Positions 51,894-64,000 of a stretch of DNA of 64,000 bases are shown here, in pieces. The translations under genes and the position numbers were made by a program. The stretch covers positions 1,302,001-1,366,000 of the forward strand of contig NZ_AP019711.1 of NCBI RefSeq assembly GCF_010537335.1, in the 5' to 3' direction. This DNA is from Amedibacterium intestinale (GTDB lineage Bacteria > Bacillota_I > Bacilli_A > Erysipelotrichales > Erysipelotrichaceae). Each line of letters begins with the position of its first letter. Position 1 is the first letter of the stretch. The notes under the pieces were generated by a model. That model saw only the letters and a list, made by a program, of their open reading frames with translations. It searched no databases and was not told where the DNA came from.

Positions 51894-53528
<1,635 letters not shown>

Positions 53529-53795
53529 TTAAGCTAATACAGCTAAAATATCTTCATCTTCTAAAATAATATATTCTTCATCATCCAAAGTAACTTTTGT
53601 ACCTGAATATTCTTTATAAACTACTTTATCATTCACTTGTACATCTGCTTTACAGTCAGGCCCAATAGCCACTACGACTGCATAGCTTGGTTTATTTTTT
53701 CCATTATCAGTTAAAATAATACCACTTGCTGTTGTTGTTTCTTTTTCCTCTTTTTCTTTTTTCAAAATCACATTTTTGTGTAACGGCTTTAACAT
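53529..53795 (-). CDS. groES: Co-chaperonin GroES (Hsp10)
   Basis: 88 residues of the usual length. The start LKPLHKNVILKKEKEEKET is the conserved N-terminus, with the mobile loop (TTASGIILTDNGKNKPSYA) after it and the end LEDEDILAVLA. Binds GroEL as a heptameric lid. First gene of the operon, with GGAGG before the ATG and two CIRCE boxes upstream. Confidence 0.98.
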   Translation of the reverse strand: MLKPLHKNVILKKEKEEKETTTASGIILTDNGKNKPSYAVVVAIGPDCKADVQVNDKVVYKEYSGTKVTLDDEEYIILEDEDILAVLA

Positions 53796-53816
53796 ATTAG
53801 ATTCCTCCTTTAAGCA

Positions 53817-53843
53817 TTAGCACTCTTAGCTTATGATTGCTAA
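53817..53843. promoter_or_regulatory. CIRCE operator 1 (HrcA site)
   Basis: TTAGCACTC-N9-GATTGCTAA matches the consensus TTAGCACTC-N9-GAGTGCTAA with one mismatch. It lies in the transcribed leader of groES. Confidence 0.93.
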
Positions 53844-53850
53844 CAAGGTT

Positions 53851-53878
53851 ATTATACACCTTTCTAGCACTTATGCAA
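53851..53878 (-). promoter_or_regulatory. groESL promoter
   Basis: TTGCAT (53873-53878), a 16-base spacer and TATAAT (53851-53856) on the minus strand, set between and overlapping the two CIRCE boxes. Confidence 0.8.
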
Positions 53879-53890
53879 TAGGAGTGCTAA
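53864..53890. promoter_or_regulatory. CIRCE operator 2 (HrcA site)
   Basis: CTAGCACTT-N9-GAGTGCTAA has two mismatches to consensus, both in the left arm, and overlaps the -35 of groES. Confidence 0.88.
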
Positions 53891-53944
53891 ACTTTTTTGA
53901 TTTTTTTATTTCTTTCTTCTTCTATCCGTAAAAATTTTATAATC

Positions 53945-53988
53945 TTAAAAAAAAGGAAGAAACACTTCCATTCCTAAGTCTTCTTCCT
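53945..53988 (-). terminator. Trk operon terminator
   Basis: AGGAAGAA and TTCTTCCT stem, then a T-run on the minus strand, directly after trkH. Confidence 0.75.
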
Positions 53989-53997
53989 TTCTAAAAC

Positions 53998-55476
53998 TTA
54001 TTTCTTCCATTTCAAACGTATAAAACTTCGAGCATAACTATATAATTCATGCACACCAATAAACACAATAAATATTTCAAGCCTTCCCATAAACATACCA
54101 ATAATTTCAACGATTAATGTAGCCATATTGGTTGCAGGTCCTGTAATTCCAATAGAAAGTCCTACGGTACCAAGACTTGAGGCAAAATCAAACATCGCAG
54201 ATGTTAAATCGCAATTTGCTGTTATAGACACCGCAATAGTTCCAATACAAAACAAAACCAGATAACAAACGAAAAAACTACTTGTATTTTTAAGCAAACG
54301 ATCATCTACCTCTTCTTTTCCATGGGCTGTTATATAAGTTATCTTTCGAATGGAACGAGCAGGTTTTAATCGCATCCTTATATCATCTATGGTTGAGCGA
54401 AGCATGATATAAATACGTGTCAGTTTTAATCCTCCTGCTGTAGAACCAATTCCTCCACCAATCAGCATCATTATGATCATGATTCCAAGAGCTGCCTGTG
54501 GCCAATCCTGGTAAGGCATTGTTGAATAACCGGTTGTTGATAAAGCGGAAACAATATTAAATAAAGAAAGACGAAGACCTTCTGCCAGATTAACATACAA
54601 CCCATATGTCAAAATAAAAGCCGTAACAGGAACAAAGACAATTAAAAGCATAAAAAGGAAGCGTACTTCACTTACTTTTATAAATTGCATGATTTTTCCT
54701 TTCGTCAAAAGTAGCAGTGCCGCAAAATTCGTTGTTCCTACCAGCATCTGGACAATTGTCACAGCCTCTATTGCAGGACTGTCATAATATCCGATACTAT
54801 CAGCTCTTGTAGAAAAACCTCCAGTTGACAAGGAACACATCGTATGAATGATACTATCAAACAAATTCATTCCACATACTAGATACATTAGTACTCCAAC
54901 TACCAAAAAGCCACAATACATTATACAAATCGTCTGTGCCGTTTTTCGTATATTTGGCAACAGTTTATCCGGATGACCTTCCGCACTATACAATGCCATG
55001 GCCTGTTTCCCCTGTACAAAAATAATCATCATCATAAGAAAACCAAGTCCACCGCAAAATTGCATAAATCCCCTGTGAAAAAGAAAAATATAAGGAGTTG
55101 CTTCTACATCCATAACCGAAAGGCCAGTTGTCGTCCATCCGCTAACTGCTTCAAAAACAGCCTGAATTGGATTTAGCAAGCCAGAAAGTACAAAAGGCAA
55201 AGCTCCCATAGTAATACCATAAACCCATGCAAACAATACGGCAAAACTGCCAACTCTTAAATTATCTCGAAATCCACCTTGCGATTGTTTTACATGAAGA
55301 TACTTGCATAAGAAAAAACCAAATACAATGGAAAGAATGGAAGGAATTAAAAACGATGGAATATACTTAACTTCATCAGGATAAAAAGGAAGAATCAGGA
55401 TAGGAACTGCTATTAAAACACCAATGATTACCGCTAATTTCCCATAGTGATTCCCATATTTAAATGCTAATTTCAT
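53998..55476 (-). CDS. trkH: Potassium uptake membrane subunit TrkH/KtrB
   Basis: 492 residues, about ten membrane-spanning segments and four pore loops with the filter glycines in SGWTTTGLSVMD, CSLSTGGFSTRADS, SALSTTGYSTMP and SSLGTVGLSIG. Imports K+, possibly with H+ or Na+. It overlaps the second TrkA gene by 4 bases and ends the operon. Two TrkA-type gating subunits are encoded just upstream. Confidence 0.95.
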   Translation of the reverse strand: MKLAFKYGNHYGKLAVIIGVLIAVPILILPFYPDEVKYIPSFLIPSILSIVFGFFLCKYLHVKQSQGGFRDNLRVGSFAVLFAWVYGITMGALPFVLSGLLNPIQAVFEAVSGWTTTGLSVMDVEATPYIFLFHRGFMQFCGGLGFLMMMIIFVQGKQAMALYSAEGHPDKLLPNIRKTAQTICIMYCGFLVVGVLMYLVCGMNLFDSIIHTMCSLSTGGFSTRADSIGYYDSPAIEAVTIVQMLVGTTNFAALLLLTKGKIMQFIKVSEVRFLFMLLIVFVPVTAFILTYGLYVNLAEGLRLSLFNIVSALSTTGYSTMPYQDWPQAALGIMIIMMLIGGGIGSTAGGLKLTRIYIMLRSTIDDIRMRLKPARSIRKITYITAHGKEEVDDRLLKNTSSFFVCYLVLFCIGTIAVSITANCDLTSAMFDFASSLGTVGLSIGITGPATNMATLIVEIIGMFMGRLEIFIVFIGVHELYSYARSFIRLKWKK

Positions 55477-56147
55477 AAGTTCTCACTTCCATTTAGAATC
55501 TGCATAGCTTTCCGTTCTTTATCTTTTGCCGCAATCAGCACGATATTATCATGTTCGAAAATACAAGTATTTCCTTTTGGTACAATACTTTTTCCATTAC
55601 GTAAAATGCATCCAATAATAACACCATCAGGCAAATGCAAATCCTGTATACTTTTCCCTGCTGCTTCAGACTCTTTTGTGATTATAATCTCACTGATAAC
55701 TACATCATCACTGGATAAAGGAATCGTCATCGCAATATTTTCCACAAATGCCTGCTGTTCTATAATACCGGTAATAGCTTGTGTCGTACAAACAACAGAA
55801 TCAATACCCATTTCATAGAAAAACTTAGATTTCCTAGAATCACTTACAATAGAAACTGTACGTTTTACATGAAATAGCTTTTTACAAAGTTCACATACAA
55901 CAAGATTGCTGTCATCTCTTTGAGTCAAAGCAATTGCTATATCTGCATTCCATATATCTGCATCCTCTAATACATAAGGCTTTGTGCCATCCCCATATAC
56001 AACATGCAAATCATTGATTTCCGCTAAAATCTGACAATTTTGATAATCCGCATTAATCGCAGTAACTTCAAACCCTTTCTGAATCAAAGAATAAGCCAAG
56101 GAACGTGCCTTGTGAAATCCTCCTATCAAGATAATTCGCTTCTTCAT
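55473..56147 (-). CDS. trkA: TrkA-type gating subunit with TrkA_C domain
   Basis: 224 residues: Rossmann-like RCK_N domain (1-125) and RCK_C/TrkA_C domain (about 140-220; EAAGKSIQDLHLPDGVIIGCILRNG). The first loop is GGFHKARSLA in place of the usual GxGxxG, so nucleotide binding may be weakened or lost. It overlaps trkH and the next trkA-like gene by 4 bases each, so all three are coupled. Confidence 0.92.
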   Translation of the reverse strand: MKKRIILIGGFHKARSLAYSLIQKGFEVTAINADYQNCQILAEINDLHVVYGDGTKPYVLEDADIWNADIAIALTQRDDSNLVVCELCKKLFHVKRTVSIVSDSRKSKFFYEMGIDSVVCTTQAITGIIEQQAFVENIAMTIPLSSDDVVISEIIITKESEAAGKSIQDLHLPDGVIIGCILRNGKSIVPKGNTCIFEHDNIVLIAAKDKERKAMQILNGSENL

Positions 56148-56596
56148 TTTGTATCCATTCCCTTCTCTTCATGTAGAATCTTTCCTACTTCAAACATAGT
56201 CAACAATGCAGGACACACAACATGAATTCCCATATCCTGACAAATAAATTCCCTGTGAGAATCATATAAACGCATAATTACTTTTTCACAATGGAACCAT
56301 TTTTTTACAAGCTGAGCCGCTAGAATATTTGTATTGTCATTGTCTGTTACAATTATGACTGCACTTGCTTCCTGTACCTTTGCATCCTTTAGCACTTCAA
56401 TATCAGTTCCATCTCCTAAAATCGTTAATCCTCCAAAGGATGAAGGAAGTTTGCGAAAGGATTCTTTTCGATCATCAATGATCAATACATTTCTATCCTC
56501 ATCTGATAAAGTACCGGCTAAAGAAGCACCAAGTCTGCCGCATCCAATAATAACTGTATAATCTTTTGTTTTCTTTTTTCCTATTTTAAATTCCAT
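56144..56596 (-). CDS. TrkA_N-only gating subunit
   Basis: 150 residues holding one RCK_N domain with an intact nucleotide loop (VIIGCGRLGASLAGTL) and the acidic end of strand 2 (LIIDDRKES), but no TrkA_C domain. With the degenerate partner downstream it looks like a TrkA whose NAD(H)-sensing and C-terminal functions have been shared between two chains. Possible role: one chain senses nucleotide and the other seats on TrkH; this is inference. Confidence 0.9.
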   Translation of the reverse strand: MEFKIGKKKTKDYTVIIGCGRLGASLAGTLSDEDRNVLIIDDRKESFRKLPSSFGGLTILGDGTDIEVLKDAKVQEASAVIIVTDNDNTNILAAQLVKKWFHCEKVIMRLYDSHREFICQDMGIHVVCPALLTMFEVGKILHEEKGMDTK

Positions 56597-56598
56597 TG

Positions 56599-56979
56599 CT
56601 AGTCCCTCTTTCTTACGATATGTCCAATACCCTGTTCATCATATTCAACAATGTAGCTTCCTTTTTGCCTTTCATCATCTTCATCTCCAAACAAAAGCTT
56701 TTTCCCTGTAGGACGAAATGCACAAAGACTATCAATATTTTTACGAATACTTGTATTCTTGGGATCTAACGCATAAGCTGAACGAAAATGTTTCATTGCT
56801 CCTACCCTGTCATTTTCTATTTCTTTTACGATTCCCATCAAATTATGAGGTATCCCTGCATCTGGATGCTGTGCCATTCCCAATGCAATTTTTTCTTTTG
56901 CTTCACTTAAGCGTTCCTCTTGAATGAATTTCCTTATATCTGCACATAATTCCCTAAGTTCTGTTATTTCATCTTTCAT
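56599..56979 (-). CDS. TPR-containing protein of the Trk operon
   Basis: 126 residues from the ATG at 56979 with GAGGAGTG upstream. Two TPR-like helical pairs span about 5-85 (LSEAKEKIALGMAQHPDAG, GAMKHFRSAYALDPKN), then an acidic/basic tail (FGDEDDERQK, GHIVRKRD). First gene of the TPR-trkA-trkA-trkH operon, with the response-regulator box and a TATAAT just upstream. A scaffold for the gating subunits is plausible. Confidence 0.85.
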   Translation of the reverse strand: MKDEITELRELCADIRKFIQEERLSEAKEKIALGMAQHPDAGIPHNLMGIVKEIENDRVGAMKHFRSAYALDPKNTSIRKNIDSLCAFRPTGKKLLFGDEDDERQKGSYIVEYDEQGIGHIVRKRD

Positions 56980-57019
56980 ATATGTCACTCCTCAAAGTTC
57001 CTTTTCTTTTTACATAGAT

Positions 57020-57084
57020 ATTATATAAAGAAACCTGTGAGATGGGTGTGAGATGTCAAAACTCTTTGTGAGAATTGTGTGAGA
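57020..57084 (-). promoter_or_regulatory. Trk operon promoter with OmpR/KdpE-type direct repeats
   Basis: TCTCACA occurs four times on the minus strand, at 57078-57084, 57067-57073, 57047-57053 and 57036-57042. Each pair is spaced by 11 bp, and the pairs are 31 bp apart, so all face the same side of the helix. TATAAT (57020-57025) lies 10 bases beyond the last copy, and no good -35 exists, as at activator-dependent promoters. Confidence 0.7.
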
Positions 57085-57159
57085 AAAAAGGATATAGGTA
57101 GATATTATCAGGAAAAGATATGTGTTTCTTATCTAAAGCTTTATAAGTAATTCAAAAAA

Positions 57160-57185
57160 AGATTATGTCTAGCATAGCATAATCT
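57160..57185. terminator. Terminator of the sensor-regulator operon
   Basis: AGATTATG and CATAATCT with T-runs on both sides; on the minus strand it follows the response regulator gene. Confidence 0.85.
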
Positions 57186-57192
57186 TTTTTAC

Positions 57193-57900
57193 CTATTCAT
57201 CAACCAGTCGATACCCAACACCAATTTCTGTCATGATATAGCGGGGTCTGGCAGGACTATCTTCAATCTTACGACGCAATGCCGCCATCAAAGCACGCAG
57301 TGCCTGTGTATCATTTCCATAATTTTTACCATAAACTTCCTGAATAATATAACTCGTTGTTAGAACTTTTCCTATATTTTTAAAGAATACAGATAAAAGG
57401 CGATATTCCATTGGTGTTACATGAAGCTCTTCCCCTTTTAAATATACCAAATGTTTAGAAAAATCAATCATCAGCTCTCCTACTTTTCCATTTTGCATAA
57501 CTTCTTCTTTACCAATTTTTTCCAGATGTCGAAAAGCTACACGAATTCTTGCTAAAAGTTCAGAAGCAGAAAATGGCTTTACAAGATAATCATCTGCCCC
57601 ATAATCCAGTGCCTTTACTTTTTCTTTATCTTGATCTCTTGCGGATACAACAATAATAGGAATATCCGAAAACTCTCTAACCTTTTTTATAACTTCCATG
57701 CCATCTGCATCAGGAAGTCCAAGATCCAGCAAAATCAAGTCCATTGGTTCGCTAACGATTTCATTCATTGCCTGTGCCGCATTTTCTGATGTCAAAACCT
57801 TATACTTTTCATTTTCCAATGCAAAGCGTATAAAATTTCGAATTTGAATATCATCCTCTACAATTAAAATGACAGGTTGAATTTCATTCAACATAAACAT
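57193..57900 (-). CDS. OmpR/KdpE-family response regulator
   Basis: 235 residues: receiver domain (1-120) with the acidic pocket ILIVEDD, phosphoacceptor Asp in LILLDLGLPD and Lys in DYLVKPFS, then a winged-helix domain (about 135-235, YRLLSVFFKNIGKVLTTSYIIQEVYG). Its gene overlaps the upstream kinase gene by 17 bases, so the two form a pair. It or its paralogue is the likely reader of the TCTCACA boxes before the Trk operon. Confidence 0.93.
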   Translation of the reverse strand: MFMLNEIQPVILIVEDDIQIRNFIRFALENEKYKVLTSENAAQAMNEIVSEPMDLILLDLGLPDADGMEVIKKVREFSDIPIIVVSARDQDKEKVKALDYGADDYLVKPFSASELLARIRVAFRHLEKIGKEEVMQNGKVGELMIDFSKHLVYLKGEELHVTPMEYRLLSVFFKNIGKVLTTSYIIQEVYGKNYGNDTQALRALMAALRRKIEDSPARPRYIMTEIGVGYRLVDE

Positions 57901-59404
57901 TCTCCTTTCTTGGAATTACAAAAGAAAATCTTGCCCCATCACCATCTTCTCTGTTTTCTGCATAGATATTTCCCCCATGTGCTTCAATGATAGATTTACA
58001 TATAGTTAACCCAAGTCCTATACCCATAGATGCATCACTATGCTTGCTGGAAGTCGTATAAAACATTTCAAAAATTCTAGAAATATCCTGTTCAGCAATT
58101 CCTTCTCCTTCATCTTCCACACATACCTTTACCTCTGTTTTGCTGCAAGACACATAAATAGAAATCGATTTATCTTTTGGTGTATGCTTATTCGCATTAT
58201 CCAAAAGATTTAAAATAACCTGTTCCAGCAGCTTTGCATCTGCATCAACAATGACAATATCATCTGGAAGCTGTACTTTTACTTCTCTTTCTGAACGCTT
58301 TTCAAACTGATATAAGGCAACACCAACAATTTCATCCATTGACTCGCTTTGACAACTCATCTGCATTTTCCCTTCCTGCAGCTTAGTAAGACTTAAAATA
58401 TTTTCCACAAGGCTATAAAGCCATTGTGCATCTTTATAAATACCATCTGTGAGTTCATATTCTTTTTCTTTGTCGTCAAGCATCTTTTTCAACATTTCAC
58501 ATGTTCCCATAATTCCTGCAAGCGGTGTTCTCAAATCATGAGAAATCGCTCTTAAAAGATTTGCACGATATCTTTGCGCATTTGCCTCTTCTTTGAATTT
58601 CAAATGCTTTGCATCTGCCTGGATACGTTCCATCGCCAAAGCGATACAATCCAGCATTGAAGTTAATACCTGTAAAATATTGTTATCAAGTATAAAGCTG
58701 TTTTGTATAGGAATACGCATAATACCTAAAACTTCTTTACTTCCTTTAATTAAAAATTCATAAAAACCCTCTGTAACAAAATAAGGTTTATCATAATCTT
58801 TTAAAAACAAAAACAAGTCATCATATTCTGCAATTTCTTTGTATACAAAACCTGTTTCACTTTTTTTCAGATAGGTATCTTTCAAAACTCCCTGTTCATC
58901 CAAATGTATACATCCTACATCAATATGCAGATATTTATTAAAAGAAACAATTGAGCGTTTTGCGACATCTTCCATATCCTTGGCATGATTCAATTCGACC
59001 ATAAGCTCTAGTAAAACCTGTTTTTCATCCGCATTTTTTTGTGCAATCTTTGCACTTTGTTTCATTTGAACTGTCAATGTAGAAATAATAAAAGATACAC
59101 AAGTCATAATCAAAAACGTTACAAGATAACCTGCTTCATTAACATTTAAACTGTAGTATGGCTGTGTAAAAAAGTAATTAAATAAAAAAGTAGATGCTAC
59201 TGCAGAAAATAAACCTGCTACATGTCCATTTCCATATTTCGCTGATAAAGCTACCGCCAGCAAATACACAATAACGATATTTGATTCCTTAAAATTCCAG
59301 GCTTGAAACAATAAGCCAATTCCTGATGCCACGATAAGCAAAAAAATACTTTGAAGAATAGAGACAATCAGATTCCAGTGCTTCCTTACTCCTTTTTGTT
59401 TCAT
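57884..59404 (-). CDS. KdpD-type histidine kinase lacking the N-terminal KdpD and Usp domains
   Basis: 506 residues. Begins directly with four DUF4118 transmembrane helices (about 12-115, with the FNYFFTQPYYSL motif), then a GAF-like region (about 135-265), a HisKA domain with the phospho-His in ISHDLRTPLAG, and a HATPase with LDNANKHT, GEGIAEQDI and GIGLGLTICKS. KdpD normally starts with a 360-residue sensory part, entirely missing here. The start (ATG overlapping the previous stop by 4 bases) is not truncated. Confidence 0.93.
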   Translation of the reverse strand: MKQKGVRKHWNLIVSILQSIFLLIVASGIGLLFQAWNFKESNIVIVYLLAVALSAKYGNGHVAGLFSAVASTFLFNYFFTQPYYSLNVNEAGYLVTFLIMTCVSFIISTLTVQMKQSAKIAQKNADEKQVLLELMVELNHAKDMEDVAKRSIVSFNKYLHIDVGCIHLDEQGVLKDTYLKKSETGFVYKEIAEYDDLFLFLKDYDKPYFVTEGFYEFLIKGSKEVLGIMRIPIQNSFILDNNILQVLTSMLDCIALAMERIQADAKHLKFKEEANAQRYRANLLRAISHDLRTPLAGIMGTCEMLKKMLDDKEKEYELTDGIYKDAQWLYSLVENILSLTKLQEGKMQMSCQSESMDEIVGVALYQFEKRSEREVKVQLPDDIVIVDADAKLLEQVILNLLDNANKHTPKDKSISIYVSCSKTEVKVCVEDEGEGIAEQDISRIFEMFYTTSSKHSDASMGIGLGLTICKSIIEAHGGNIYAENREDGDGARFSFVIPRKENVYVE

Positions 59405-60129
59405 TTATTTTCATCCTCTTTTCTTAAGCGAAGCATTCGATACCCTATTCCAATATGTGTTTGAATGTATCGCTCATTTGTATGATTTCCTTTTTCAATC
59501 TTTTTTCTTAAGGATGCCATATACACACGTAAAGATGATAAATCACTTTCCAACGCATTGGTCCATACCTTATCTAAAATATATTGATGTGTTAATACTT
59601 TCCCAACATTTTTAGAAAGCAGACATAAAAGATGATACTCAATCGGCATTAAGTGTATTTCCACACCTTCAACATAAACGGTAGCACTTGTATAATCAAT
59701 TTTTAAATTTCCATTTTCAAATACAGTATTTTCAAGATTATTTTGATTTTCCAGATATTCCGCTCTTCGAAGCGTAGAGCGAACGCGTGCCAGTAATTCT
59801 TCAACAGAAAATGGTTTTGTTAAGTAATCATCTGCTCCTGCATCCAGGGCTTCAATTTTATCCTGATCATCGTTTCTTGCGGAAATTACAATGATTGGCA
59901 TCATGGAAAATGAGCGAATTTGACGAATTACTTCAACCCCATCCATATCTGGTAATCCCAAATCCAAAAGCATCATATCTATTTTCTTTGCCGTCGCAAG
60001 AAGCAAAGCCCCTTTCCCATCTACAGCCGCCTCATAATGATAAGCATTTGCCTGTAAGGTAGTTGTAATTAAATTTCGAATGGATGCATCATCCTCCACT
60101 ACTAAAATACCTTTTTGATTATTTAACAT
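59401..60129 (-). CDS. OmpR/KdpE-family response regulator
   Basis: 242 residues, paralogous to the regulator at 57193-57900. Receiver motifs ILVVEDD, MMLLDLGLPDMDG and DDYLTKPFS are intact, as is the C-terminal winged helix (YHLLCLLSKNVGKVLTHQYI). The C-terminus has a short basic/acidic extension (LRLRKEDENK). Overlaps by 4 and 7 bases with neighbouring kinases show all four sensor-regulator genes are one operon. Confidence 0.93.
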   Translation of the reverse strand: MLNNQKGILVVEDDASIRNLITTTLQANAYHYEAAVDGKGALLLATAKKIDMMLLDLGLPDMDGVEVIRQIRSFSMMPIIVISARNDDQDKIEALDAGADDYLTKPFSVEELLARVRSTLRRAEYLENQNNLENTVFENGNLKIDYTSATVYVEGVEIHLMPIEYHLLCLLSKNVGKVLTHQYILDKVWTNALESDLSSLRVYMASLRKKIEKGNHTNERYIQTHIGIGYRMLRLRKEDENK

Positions 60130-62093
60130 AATGTAATCTCCTCTTTTCTTAAATAAATCTGGAATTTTGCCCCATGCGGTTTACAGTCATGAACTTCTAT
60201 TCTTCCATCATGTGCCAACACTATGGAACGACATAAGGAAAGTCCAAGTCCCATACCCCTTCTTCCATCTACTACTTTTCGCTGGGCAGAATAAAACATA
60301 TCAAATATATGTTCTTTCTCTTCATCGCGAATGCCTGCCCCATCATCACAGACTTCAATTACACATTCTTCCCCCAAAGCAAAAACTTTTACATTGATGA
60401 TAGATGTCTCATAAGAATATTTTACCGCATTATTTAATAGGTTTGTCAATACCTGAATCATTAATCTGGCATCCATTTTCGCTGCCAAAATTTCATCCGG
60501 TTCTTCATAAAGGAATTTCTGCTTTGGTTTTGTACGAATATGTGATATTGCTTCTTCTACAACATCAGAAACAATTTCTGTTTGAAAATTTAACTGCATC
60601 GTTCCATTTTCGATTCTTGTTACAGACAATAAGTTTTCAACAAGATTAATAAGCCATAAACTATCTTCCTGAATATCGGTATACATACGTATTCTTTGTT
60701 CTTCACTCATTTCTTTACTATTCAACAACAATGCGGAAGCATTCCCACAAATACTTGTCAAAGGTGTACGTAAATCATGAGAAATGGAACGAAGAAGATT
60801 GGCTCTTAGCTGTTCCTGTTTCAATTTTGTAAATGCATCATTTTGTTTCGCAACAAATTCTTCTTTTTCCATCGCTAAAGCACACTCAGAAAGCATCGCA
60901 AGCAGCACTCCTTCTTCAAAGGAAGAAATAGGTTCTTTCTCCATATCAATACCTACGATTGAAAAAATCTTTTCTCCATTGCGAACGGTTAAAAATAAAT
61001 ATCTAGAGTCTTTGCATATATCTGTAGCATATCCTGTATGTCGATTTAATTCATAGGCTTGAATCGCAGCCTGCATTTCTATAGAGGATAGAGGATGAAA
61101 TGCTTTTTTTTGATAAACACACTGTTTAGGTTCATAATGGTTTGGATCTCCCATAAAATATAGTACGTTTTTTTCTAGCAGATGGGAAATCTGCCAGCTC
61201 ATTTTCTGCATGACATCTTCCATGTGAACAGCTTTTTGAAGCTTTTGGCTTGTCTCCAGCAATAACTCTGTTCGATTTGCTTTCAAGGACAATACACTTG
61301 CCATATTTTTCATTTTATGCGTAATTGACGAAATCAGAAACGCTGTGATAAACATTACAAAAAATGTTCCTATATAACTTTTATCATATACCTTGAAGGT
61401 CCATACAGGACTTGTAAAAAAATAATTAAAGGCAAAAACTGCAATGCCGCTGTACAGAAAGCAAATAAAGGACGATAAAATAGAAGAAGTAAAAATTCCC
61501 GTTAATAAAACACCAACGATATACATCATTATAATGTTGATATCTCGAAATCCCCATGATTCCATAAAAAAGCCGCAAAGCGTTACAAAAGCTAAAATAA
61601 AAAAAGCAAGCAAAACATCCTTTATGATTCGTATAGATTCTTTCCTTTGTTTTTTCAAAAGCAGACTCTCTTCATCATTGCTTTGTTTATGCACATAAAT
61701 ATCTGTATCTGGTATTTTTTTTGCCAGTTTGCTGGCAATCGATTCCCTTTCAACAAAACTATGTCTTTTTTTCAGGCTATTTCCTAGTACAACACAATCC
61801 ACTTGGTTTTTCTTTACAAAATGTGCGATCTCTGTAACAACATCTTTCCCATATATGCAGAAAACCTGTGCTCCTTCTTTTTCTGCCTGTGAAAGATTCC
61901 ACTCTAATTCCTGTTTTTCCTTTAAACTCAATCGATTAAAATAAGAATTCTTTTTTACATAGATAGCTGATAAACATGCGTGATTTCGCATAGCTAGATC
62001 AGCAGCGCTCAAAATTGTTTTTCTTGATAATTTCGAGGAAGATATACATATAAGAACATGCTGTATGTGGTTATTTTCTAAATTCTTTTCCAT
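60123..62093 (-). CDS. KdpD-type histidine kinase with Usp domain only
   Basis: 656 residues from the ATG at 62093 (GGAG at good spacing; an ATG four codons earlier is closer to it). A universal-stress-protein domain (about 10-140) is followed by DUF4118 (four helices, about 160-265), a GAF-like region, HisKA with SISHDLRTPLTS, and HATPase with LLNNAVKYS, GAGIRDEE and GMGLGLSLCRS. The roughly 210-residue ATP-binding KdpD sensory domain is absent. First gene of the four-gene operon. Confidence 0.93.
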   Translation of the reverse strand: MEKNLENNHIQHVLICISSSKLSRKTILSAADLAMRNHACLSAIYVKKNSYFNRLSLKEKQELEWNLSQAEKEGAQVFCIYGKDVVTEIAHFVKKNQVDCVVLGNSLKKRHSFVERESIASKLAKKIPDTDIYVHKQSNDEESLLLKKQRKESIRIIKDVLLAFFILAFVTLCGFFMESWGFRDINIIMMYIVGVLLTGIFTSSILSSFICFLYSGIAVFAFNYFFTSPVWTFKVYDKSYIGTFFVMFITAFLISSITHKMKNMASVLSLKANRTELLLETSQKLQKAVHMEDVMQKMSWQISHLLEKNVLYFMGDPNHYEPKQCVYQKKAFHPLSSIEMQAAIQAYELNRHTGYATDICKDSRYLFLTVRNGEKIFSIVGIDMEKEPISSFEEGVLLAMLSECALAMEKEEFVAKQNDAFTKLKQEQLRANLLRSISHDLRTPLTSICGNASALLLNSKEMSEEQRIRMYTDIQEDSLWLINLVENLLSVTRIENGTMQLNFQTEIVSDVVEEAISHIRTKPKQKFLYEEPDEILAAKMDARLMIQVLTNLLNNAVKYSYETSIINVKVFALGEECVIEVCDDGAGIRDEEKEHIFDMFYSAQRKVVDGRRGMGLGLSLCRSIVLAHDGRIEVHDCKPHGAKFQIYLRKEEITLC

Positions 62094-62162
62094 AACATTC
62101 TCCATTTTTTATTTCTATATATCTATTTTATCAAAAATTGTTTATTTGCTTTAGATATTCAT

Positions 62163-62217
62163 ATTAAAATTGCATTAAAATCATGGTTAATTTCTATTTT
62201 CATGGAATTTTCATAGT
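62163..62217. promoter_or_regulatory. Phased 11-bp repeats between divergent kinases
   Basis: Five consecutive 11-base blocks: ATTAAAATTGC, ATTAAAATCAT, a divergent one, ATTTTCATGGA and ATTTTCATAGT, starting at 62163, 62174, 62185, 62196 and 62207. Blocks 1-2 and 4-5 are tandem direct repeats, the layout bound by OmpR/KdpE-type regulators. They lie between the divergent kdpD and sensor-regulator operons. Confidence 0.55.
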
Positions 62218-62255
62218 AGAATAATATAAAAAGCAGAAAGAAGGATGCATTTTAA

Positions 62256-64000
62256 ATGGAAAAAAGAAAAGGAAAATTAAAAATCTTTTTTGGATATTGT
62301 GCAGGTGTTGGAAAAACCTATATGATGTTAAATACGGCACATCAAAAATATGTAGAGGGAGTTGATGTTGTCATTGGTTATATTGAACCACATGATCGTA
62401 AAGAAACGATGGATCTGGTACATGGCTTGGAAACAATTCCAACAAAGCAAATAGAGTATAAAGGACATACTTTTAAAGAATTCGATTTAGACAGTGCACT
62501 AAAACGGCATCCACAGTTAATTCTTGTAGATGAATTGGCACATACAAACATTTCTGGTTCTCGTCATGAAAAAAGATACAGTGATATTGAAGAGCTTTTA
62601 CGAGCAGGAATTGATGTTTATACAACGGTAAATGTACAGCACTTGGAAAGTCTGCATGATATCGTAGAAAGCATCACCAGAATAAAGGTCAATGAAAGGA
62701 TTCCTGATCACATTTTTGATGATGCCGATGATGTAAAACTGGTTGATATTGAAGTAGATGATCTGCTTATTCGTCTTGAAGAAGGAAAAATTTATCCAAA
62801 AAATCGAGCAAAACGTGCCTTGGAACATTTTTTTGCGAAAGATAATTTGATTGCTTTGCGCTCCATTGCGTTAAGGCGATGTGCCGATCGTGTAAACTTA
62901 ATTGCCACGCCACATACACGTACCTTTGCCAAAGACCATATCTTAGTATGCCTTGGTTCTTCTCCAACAAATGAAAAAGTCATACGCACCGCATCCCGCA
63001 TGGCACAGGCATTTCATGCTGATTTTACGGCTTTGTATGTAGAAACCGATCAGCAGTCCCACATGTCTGAAAAAGCAATGGCACAATTACAATCCAATTT
63101 AAAACTGGCACGTCATTTGGAAGCAGATATAGTTTCTACCTATGGAAATGATATCCCTTATCAAATCTCACAATATGTTAAAACAAGCAGTGTATCAAAA
63201 TTGGTAATCGGTCGTTCTTATCAAAAACCATCTATCTTCAAAAAAACAACGATTGTTGATCGTTTAAATCAATTATCTCCTGACCTGGAAATTTATATCA
63301 TTCCTGATGCACGTTCAAAAGCCTCTGCACATTCGTCTTTGGATTTGAAATCGTATATACACTTTACAAAAAAGGAGACTTTATCCACCATTTCTATTTT
63401 GCTTCTTACAACACTTGCCAGCTATGGTATTTTTACAATTCAGCCAAATGCTACGAATGCAATCTTGCTGTTTGTATTAGCTGCCTGTGTCATTGGTGTT
63501 ACAACATTATATCCTATTTACAGTATTCTTGCCGCAATCTACAGCGTTACGATCATTAACTTTCTTTTTATTGAACCACGCTTTACCTTTGAAATGTCAT
63601 CAAGCCAATATACATTAATCTTTATATGTATGATTGCAGTATCTTTCACAATATCTTATTTTACTAGAAAATTAAAAAGAGAAAATATCTTAGCCAGTCT
63701 TCATGCCCACAGCATGGATGTACTGCTGGAAACAAGCCAGAAACTGCAAATGTGCAACACATATGATGATGTAAAAGAAGAAGCCTGTTATCAGCTGCAT
63801 CGTATGTTAAAAAGACTCATTATTTACTACCCTGTAAAAAATAAAACTTTACAAGAACCCACACTTTACAGTGAACAGCATATTAGTGATGATCTTCATT
63901 CATTATATACAAGTAAGGAGGAAACAGCCGTTGCGAAATGGGTATTAGAAAACAATAAAAATGCAGGTGCATCCACAAGTACTCTGCCACATGCAAAAGG
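62256..64000 (+). CDS. kdpD: Sensor kinase KdpD, N-terminal part (runs off the window)
   Basis: Osmotic/K+ sensor. The frame is open from the ATG at 62256 (GAAGGA upstream) to the window edge, 581 codons. KdpD sensory domain with Walker A GYCAGVGKTYM and Walker B LILVDELAHTN (about 1-215), a Usp domain (about 225-365), four DUF4118 helices (about 385-480) and the start of a GAF-like region; the kinase core would follow outside. KdpFABC or KdpE, if present, would lie beyond the right edge. Confidence 0.95.
   Translation, partial: MEKRKGKLKIFFGYCAGVGKTYMMLNTAHQKYVEGVDVVIGYIEPHDRKETMDLVHGLETIPTKQIEYKGHTFKEFDLDSALKRHPQLILVDELAHTNISGSRHEKRYSDIEELLRAGIDVYTTVNVQHLESLHDIVESITRIKVNERIPDHIFDDADDVKLVDIEVDDLLIRLEEGKIYPKNRAKRALEHFFAKDNLIALRSIALRRCADRVNLIATPHTRTFAKDHILVCLGSSPTNEKVIRTASRMAQAFHADFTALYVETDQQSHMSEKAMAQLQSNLKLARHLEADIVSTYGNDIPYQISQYVKTSSVSKLVIGRSYQKPSIFKKTTIVDRLNQLSPDLEIYIIPDARSKASAHSSLDLKSYIHFTKKETLSTISILLLTTLASYGIFTIQPNATNAILLFVLAACVIGVTTLYPIYSILAAIYSVTIINFLFIEPRFTFEMSSSQYTLIFICMIAVSFTISYFTRKLKRENILASLHAHSMDVLLETSQKLQMCNTYDDVKEEACYQLHRMLKRLIIYYPVKNKTLQEPTLYSEQHISDDLHSLYTSKEETAVAKWVLENNKNAGASTSTLPHAK

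Follow-up and report, generated by a model that had tools for sequence, protein, structure and literature searches.

Is the Trk potassium transporter of Amedibacterium intestinale, a type of system described as constitutive (PMC3610689, PMC5401905), under the control of a two-component system of its own? The question is raised by positions 57020-57084 of the 64,000-nucleotide stretch of contig NZ_AP019711.1 analyzed here (hereafter the window), which lie between a trk operon and the genes of two response regulators and two sensor kinases.

The trk operon and its promoter

The operon is encoded on the minus strand and comprises, in order, a small TPR-fold protein (56599-56979; 126 aa from the ATG at 56979), the TrkA_N protein TrkA1 (56144-56596; PF02254), the TrkA_N/TrkA_C protein TrkA2 (55473-56147; PF02254 and PF02080) and the potassium transporter subunit TrkH (53998-55476; PF02386, TIGR00933). 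TrkH and the TrkA_N/TrkA_C subunits of a Trk system are thus found in one operon, with TrkA split over two genes. The TPR protein matched no Pfam family; its AlphaFold model (pLDDT 87), with predicted helical hairpins plus a beta-hairpin tail, had TPR-like structure matches.

Upstream of the operon, the minus strand reads TCTCACA-CAAT-TCTCACA-N13-TCTCACA-CCCA-TCTCACA-N10-TATAAT from 57084 to 57020. Both the distal pair (57067-57084) and the proximal pair (57036-57053) match TCTCACA-N4-TCTCACA exactly and are kept across genera. With the -10 hexamer TATAAT (57020-57025; 10 nt downstream of the last box) set at -12 to -7, the distal pair is predicted to span about -71 to -54; the proximal pair, predicted at about -40 to -23, stands in place of a -35 element. 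The boxes are spaced by 11 bp inside each pair and by 31 bp from pair to pair, so all four lie on one helical face, and the array has the direct repeats with 11-bp period of OmpR/PhoB-type operators. No -35 consensus was found at 16-18 bp from TATAAT (the hexamer at 17 bp is CACCCA), and a sigma-70 scan of the operon strand gave no -35/-10 pair. In these respects the preliminary description, which had pointed to four boxes in two 11-bp pairs on one helical face beside a TATAAT without -35, proved accurate in both coordinates and spacing.

The array is divided from the end of the upstream regulator operon by a terminator-like, A/T-rich hairpin with a U tract (57155-57190, minus strand; fold -12.6 kcal/mol, z -3.8), which a simple GC-based terminator scan did not list. 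In the 2,488,096-base genome, the exact pair TCTCACA-N4-TCTCACA occurs twice, both times at the trk promoter, against a chance expectation of approximately 0.003 per genome (calculated from the heptamer frequency in the window). When two mismatches were allowed genome-wide, 13 matches were obtained vs 13 for the reversed control, and no additional sites of a wider regulon stood out. An Rfam scan of 53500-64000 matched no RNA family, and thus gave no riboswitch or other known RNA at the trk promoter.

Regulators and kinases upstream of the trk operon

Four genes precede the trk promoter in the same direction: HK2 (60123-62105), RR2 (59401-60129), HK1 (57884-59404) and RR1 (57193-57900). Both regulators best matched KdpE and both kinases KdpD, all below the equivalog cut-offs, and the domain and family scores thereby confirm an earlier statement that two OmpR-type regulators with KdpD-like kinases are encoded immediately upstream. 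With 227 bits vs a cut-off of 325, RR1 is, judged by its sequence, KdpE-like and not filed as KdpE. HK1, with KdpD as its best NCBIfam family (254 bits, under the cut-off), has retained the DUF4118 membrane domain of KdpD and the kinase core (HisKA and HATPase), but a domain search found neither the KdpD N-terminal domain PF02702 nor a Usp domain in it; hence the suggestion of KdpD-type sensing is correct in part. HK2 has a weak Usp-like match in addition to DUF4118 and kinase domains.

The site bound by Escherichia coli KdpE is TTTATA-N5-TTTACA at -72 to -50, and residues R193, R200 and T215 of the protein matter for binding (PMC3264566). R202, R209 and T224 of RR1 read as these three residues, an equivalence taken from the motif without aligning the E. 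coli sequence itself, and the equivalent arginines and threonine are kept in all regulator clades described below. The RR1 clade differs at recognition-helix positions 198, 200, 203 and 204, which we infer, from the motif rather than a structure, to lie close to the base-contacting positions of Mycobacterium tuberculosis PhoP (PMC4832192).

Two side observations concern this region. First, a 653-aa KdpD-like protein is encoded on the plus strand at 62256-64000 and beyond (L010:10256-12217); its domains are KdpD, Usp-like and DUF4118, a kinase domain being absent, and it best matched KdpD and a KdpD-like non-kinase sensor, so that KdpD appears to be split over separate genes at this locus. A homologue of the kinase-less sensor adjoins kdpABC in three relatives (G009, G171 and G393). 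Second, a TTTTAAT-N4-TTTTAAT pair upstream of HK2 (62163-62180, minus strand) is possibly a site through which the regulator operon controls itself; the region upstream of HK2 gave no four-box array that was significant.

Distribution of the array in relatives

The preliminary description was prepared to give up its reading if the motif were not conserved at the trk operons of relatives, and here the array was found to be conserved: in about ten species it precedes TPR-trkA-trkA-trkH, usually beside a KdpE-like regulator. Among 273 family genomes the exact pair gave 15 matches vs 3 for the control, and those of G009, G077, G171, G172 and G194 precede a TPR-trkA-trkA operon. The four-box pattern with up to three mismatches gave 7 matches in the same genomes and 4 in a phylum sample, and its reversed control gave none in either. 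Beyond the family, the array precedes TPR-trk in G564 (another family of the same order), and Lacrimispora defluvii (Lachnospiraceae, another class) has the order HK1-RR1-array-TPR-trkA-trkA-trkH with an RR1 that is 67% identical. An RR1 orthologue was adjacent or in the same cluster in G000, G009, G077, G171, G172, G196, G564, G393, G498 and Lacrimispora, and was not seen in the stretch examined in G173 and G194. G001, which belongs to the same genus, has no RR1 orthologue and equally lacks the boxes and the TPR gene.

Several loci depart from this pattern. G176 has degenerate TCTCACA-like boxes and a divergent HK1, with no response regulator seen in the stretch examined, and G123 has intermediate boxes without a -10 at the usual offset. 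In G393 and G498 the TPR gene stands behind the array, and no trk genes were seen after it in the stretch read. In G196 (L147) the order is RR1, TCTCACA array, TPR gene and kdpA; the distance from the array to the TPR gene is about 250 bp longer, and this TPR gene adjoins kdpFABC and not trk. A second TCTCACA/ACTCACA array of perfect geometry, with TAAAAT at 10 nt, was observed in G077 (L130:1501-1548), where it precedes no recognisable gene; it is one of the seven family matches to the four-box pattern. Two more of the seven, in G036 and G043 (three mismatches; L128/L129), are related TTCACA/TCTCACA arrays that are imperfect and located where ftsH ends, with trk genes absent; they were rejected as chance or unrelated, and exact single pairs in G005, G008, G018, G034, G080, G119 and G264 look like chance, with no trk link.

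In a survey with the motif left free, a model of the TPR protein had matches in 31 of the 273 genomes, and upstream regions were scanned for four-box arrays that have 11-bp pairs and whose boxes resemble one another. At nearly every locus the array outscored all or most of 200 resampled sequences; L149 was an exception, and so was L147, where the TCTCACA array is located upstream of the stretch that was searched. The arrays at trk/TPR sort into a TCTCACA class and AT-rich classes. A -10-like hexamer, which played no part in the array search, stood exactly 10 nt from the array in 30 of 34 scored promoters (next best offset, 5/34), a count that leaves out L136, L149 and L158 (arrays degenerate or absent) and includes as a miss the mis-framed L135, in which a gap-14 reading gives TACAAT at 10 nt. 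These promoters are related to one another, and a binomial figure that counts them as independent is not to be taken at face value.

A probable parallel circuit at kdpFABC

In A. intestinale, kdpFABC and a kinase-less KdpD-like sensor are located just past the window. The kdpFABC promoter carries TTTAATG-N4-TTTAATA-N13-TTTAACA-N4-TTTAATT, in the same frame as the trk array and 10 nt from the -10-like TAAGAT; this AT-rich four-box array is the sole such site in the genome. AT-rich arrays of the same geometry precede kdpA in seven of the eight Kdp-bearing genomes of the TCTCACA class, none being visible in G176. The AT-rich TTTATA-type half-sites of KdpE operators are found at kdp promoters and not at the A. 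intestinale trk promoter, which has TCTCACA.

A tree of the regulators resolved three clades: RR1-like regulators with TCTCACA at trk (clade A), RR2-like regulators linked to kdp, and a third clade with TTTATA-type boxes at trk (support 99/97, 100/99 and 99/98, respectively). L184_0 and L166 represent the same RR1, and clade A is not split. KdpA was present in 8 of the 12 genomes with TCTCACA at trk/TPR vs none of the 16 with AT-rich boxes there (Fisher 0.0002 by genome and 0.01 by genus, both of which ignore relatedness, and some of the genomes are incomplete drafts). The regulator and operator classes follow phylogeny, and their match could partly reflect shared descent rather than coevolution. 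The four TCTCACA genomes that lack KdpA imply that insulation from Kdp is not the whole story there.

Judging from the genes and arrays involved, HK1-RR1 is likely to be the Trk regulator, and the AT-rich kdpFABC array is likely to be read by RR2. A regulator box at trk, and one of KdpE-like type, has strong comparative support, but the two regulators, which had been treated alike, do not appear interchangeable: the RR1 clade travels with TCTCACA, and RR2 is kdp-linked. Similarly, the proposal that KdpD-type sensing controls Trk rather than, or in addition to, KdpFABC is better restated as two parallel circuits, as kdpFABC has an AT-rich array of its own.

An alternative is that RR2, or RR1 and RR2 both, bind the TCTCACA boxes, such that Trk and Kdp would form one KdpDE-like regulon. 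RR1 and RR2 are 46-47% identical and probably co-transcribed, and in G393 and G498 the genes directly before the box are of RR2 type. However, both genomes also have an RR1 orthologue (that of G393, whose box has RR2-type genes on its flanks, belongs to the same cluster at a distance of 11 kb), RR1 adjoins the TCTCACA boxes in G077, G564 and Lacrimispora, the recognition helices of RR1 and RR2 differ, and genomes of the RR2 clade carry AT-rich boxes at kdp. We consider a shared regulon unlikely.

A model for Trk control

Given the boxes, their geometry and conservation, the co-occurrence and the regulator clades, it is probable that 57020-57084 is the operator-promoter of a regulated trk operon and that RR1-HK1 is its switch, duplicated from a KdpDE-type system and separate from that of Kdp. 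HK1 would drive the phosphorylation of RR1, and phosphorylated RR1 would bind in tandem, with a dimer on each of the two 11-bp box pairs. The place of the missing -35 element would be filled by the proximal dimer at 10 nt from the -10, with the distal dimer three helical turns upstream of it, and RNA polymerase would be recruited to the trk promoter only with active RR1. Potassium limitation, or an osmotic cue related to it, is the probable signal.

The opposite sign of control, in which RR1 would repress trk from these boxes and be released at low potassium, has some appeal because a protein bound at the proximal pair would cover part of the -35 zone and could obstruct polymerase there. Nevertheless, there is no -35 for unaided initiation, the 10-nt register to the -10 in 30 of the 34 promoters is what is expected for polymerase contact, and kdp promoters have the same geometry, KdpE being an activator in E. 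coli (PMC3610689); repression by RR1 thus seems rather improbable. It is least likely that another regulator of the OmpR/PhoB family (e.g., PhoB- or PhoP-like) reads the boxes, with the KdpE-like genes beside them only by coincidence: 17 OmpR-type effector domains are encoded in the genome and the M. tuberculosis PhoP motif TCACAGC-N4-TCACAGC is related (PMC4832192), but the array occurs at one genome locus only, unlike a global regulon, the box class tracks the RR1 clade from family to family and also in a second class, and G001 lacks RR1 orthologue, TPR gene and boxes together.

Returning to activation by RR1, the RR1-HK1 pair probably originated by duplication of a KdpDE-type system. Its operator would have shifted to TCTCACA, which has C at positions 2, 4 and 6, and the starting point would have been the AT-rich half-site of KdpE, T/C-T-T-A/T-A-T/C-A. 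Since the paralogue RR2 would have retained the AT-rich kdpFABC boxes while the RR1 operator changed, Trk and Kdp uptake are probably run by two insulated switches. A broader reading, for which we see even chances, is that gut Bacillota present a re-tuned series: without Kdp, a KdpDE-type system with ordinary boxes would run Trk; with Kdp, a duplicated pair, altered in the recognition helix and in the half-site at three bases, would do so in insulation; and Trk would be inducible.

While KdpDE control of a potassium transporter is already known for kdpFABC, we found no earlier account of KdpE control of trk, or of a trk-specific KdpDE-like pair, in the open-access literature, which most subscription papers lie outside. 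If the model is true, Trk here is an inducible transporter under two-component control, contrary to the constitutive textbook view, and such a dedicated switch, retained in several families, would alter how the transporter is seen in these bacteria. In addition, three regulator clades, three related half-sites and one unchanged promoter scaffold would offer a natural and tractable test of the way in which duplicated two-component systems become insulated from one another.

Comparison with known systems

Transcriptional control of potassium importers is also known from c-di-AMP riboswitches, e.g., at kdpFABC of B. thuringiensis (PMC6488665), whereas no Rfam riboswitch is present in 53500-64000 here. 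PhoB operators and the TCACAGC-N4-TCACAGC sites of M. tuberculosis PhoP (PMC4832192) resemble the trk array in combining a 7-bp motif with a 4-bp spacer, and the PhoP motif shares TCACA with TCTCACA; however, RR1 groups with KdpE rather than PhoB or PhoP by family score and genome context. There is also a likeness to the KdpDE/kdpFABC system of E. coli: RR1 and RR2 best match KdpE, HK1 and HK2 best match KdpD, the half-sites repeat at 11 bp, and the distal trk pair lies where E. coli KdpE binds. On the other hand, the target here is trk and not kdp, HK1 is without the N-terminal and Usp domains of KdpD, the half-site has C at three positions, and the trk array has a second, proximal pair that replaces the -35 element.
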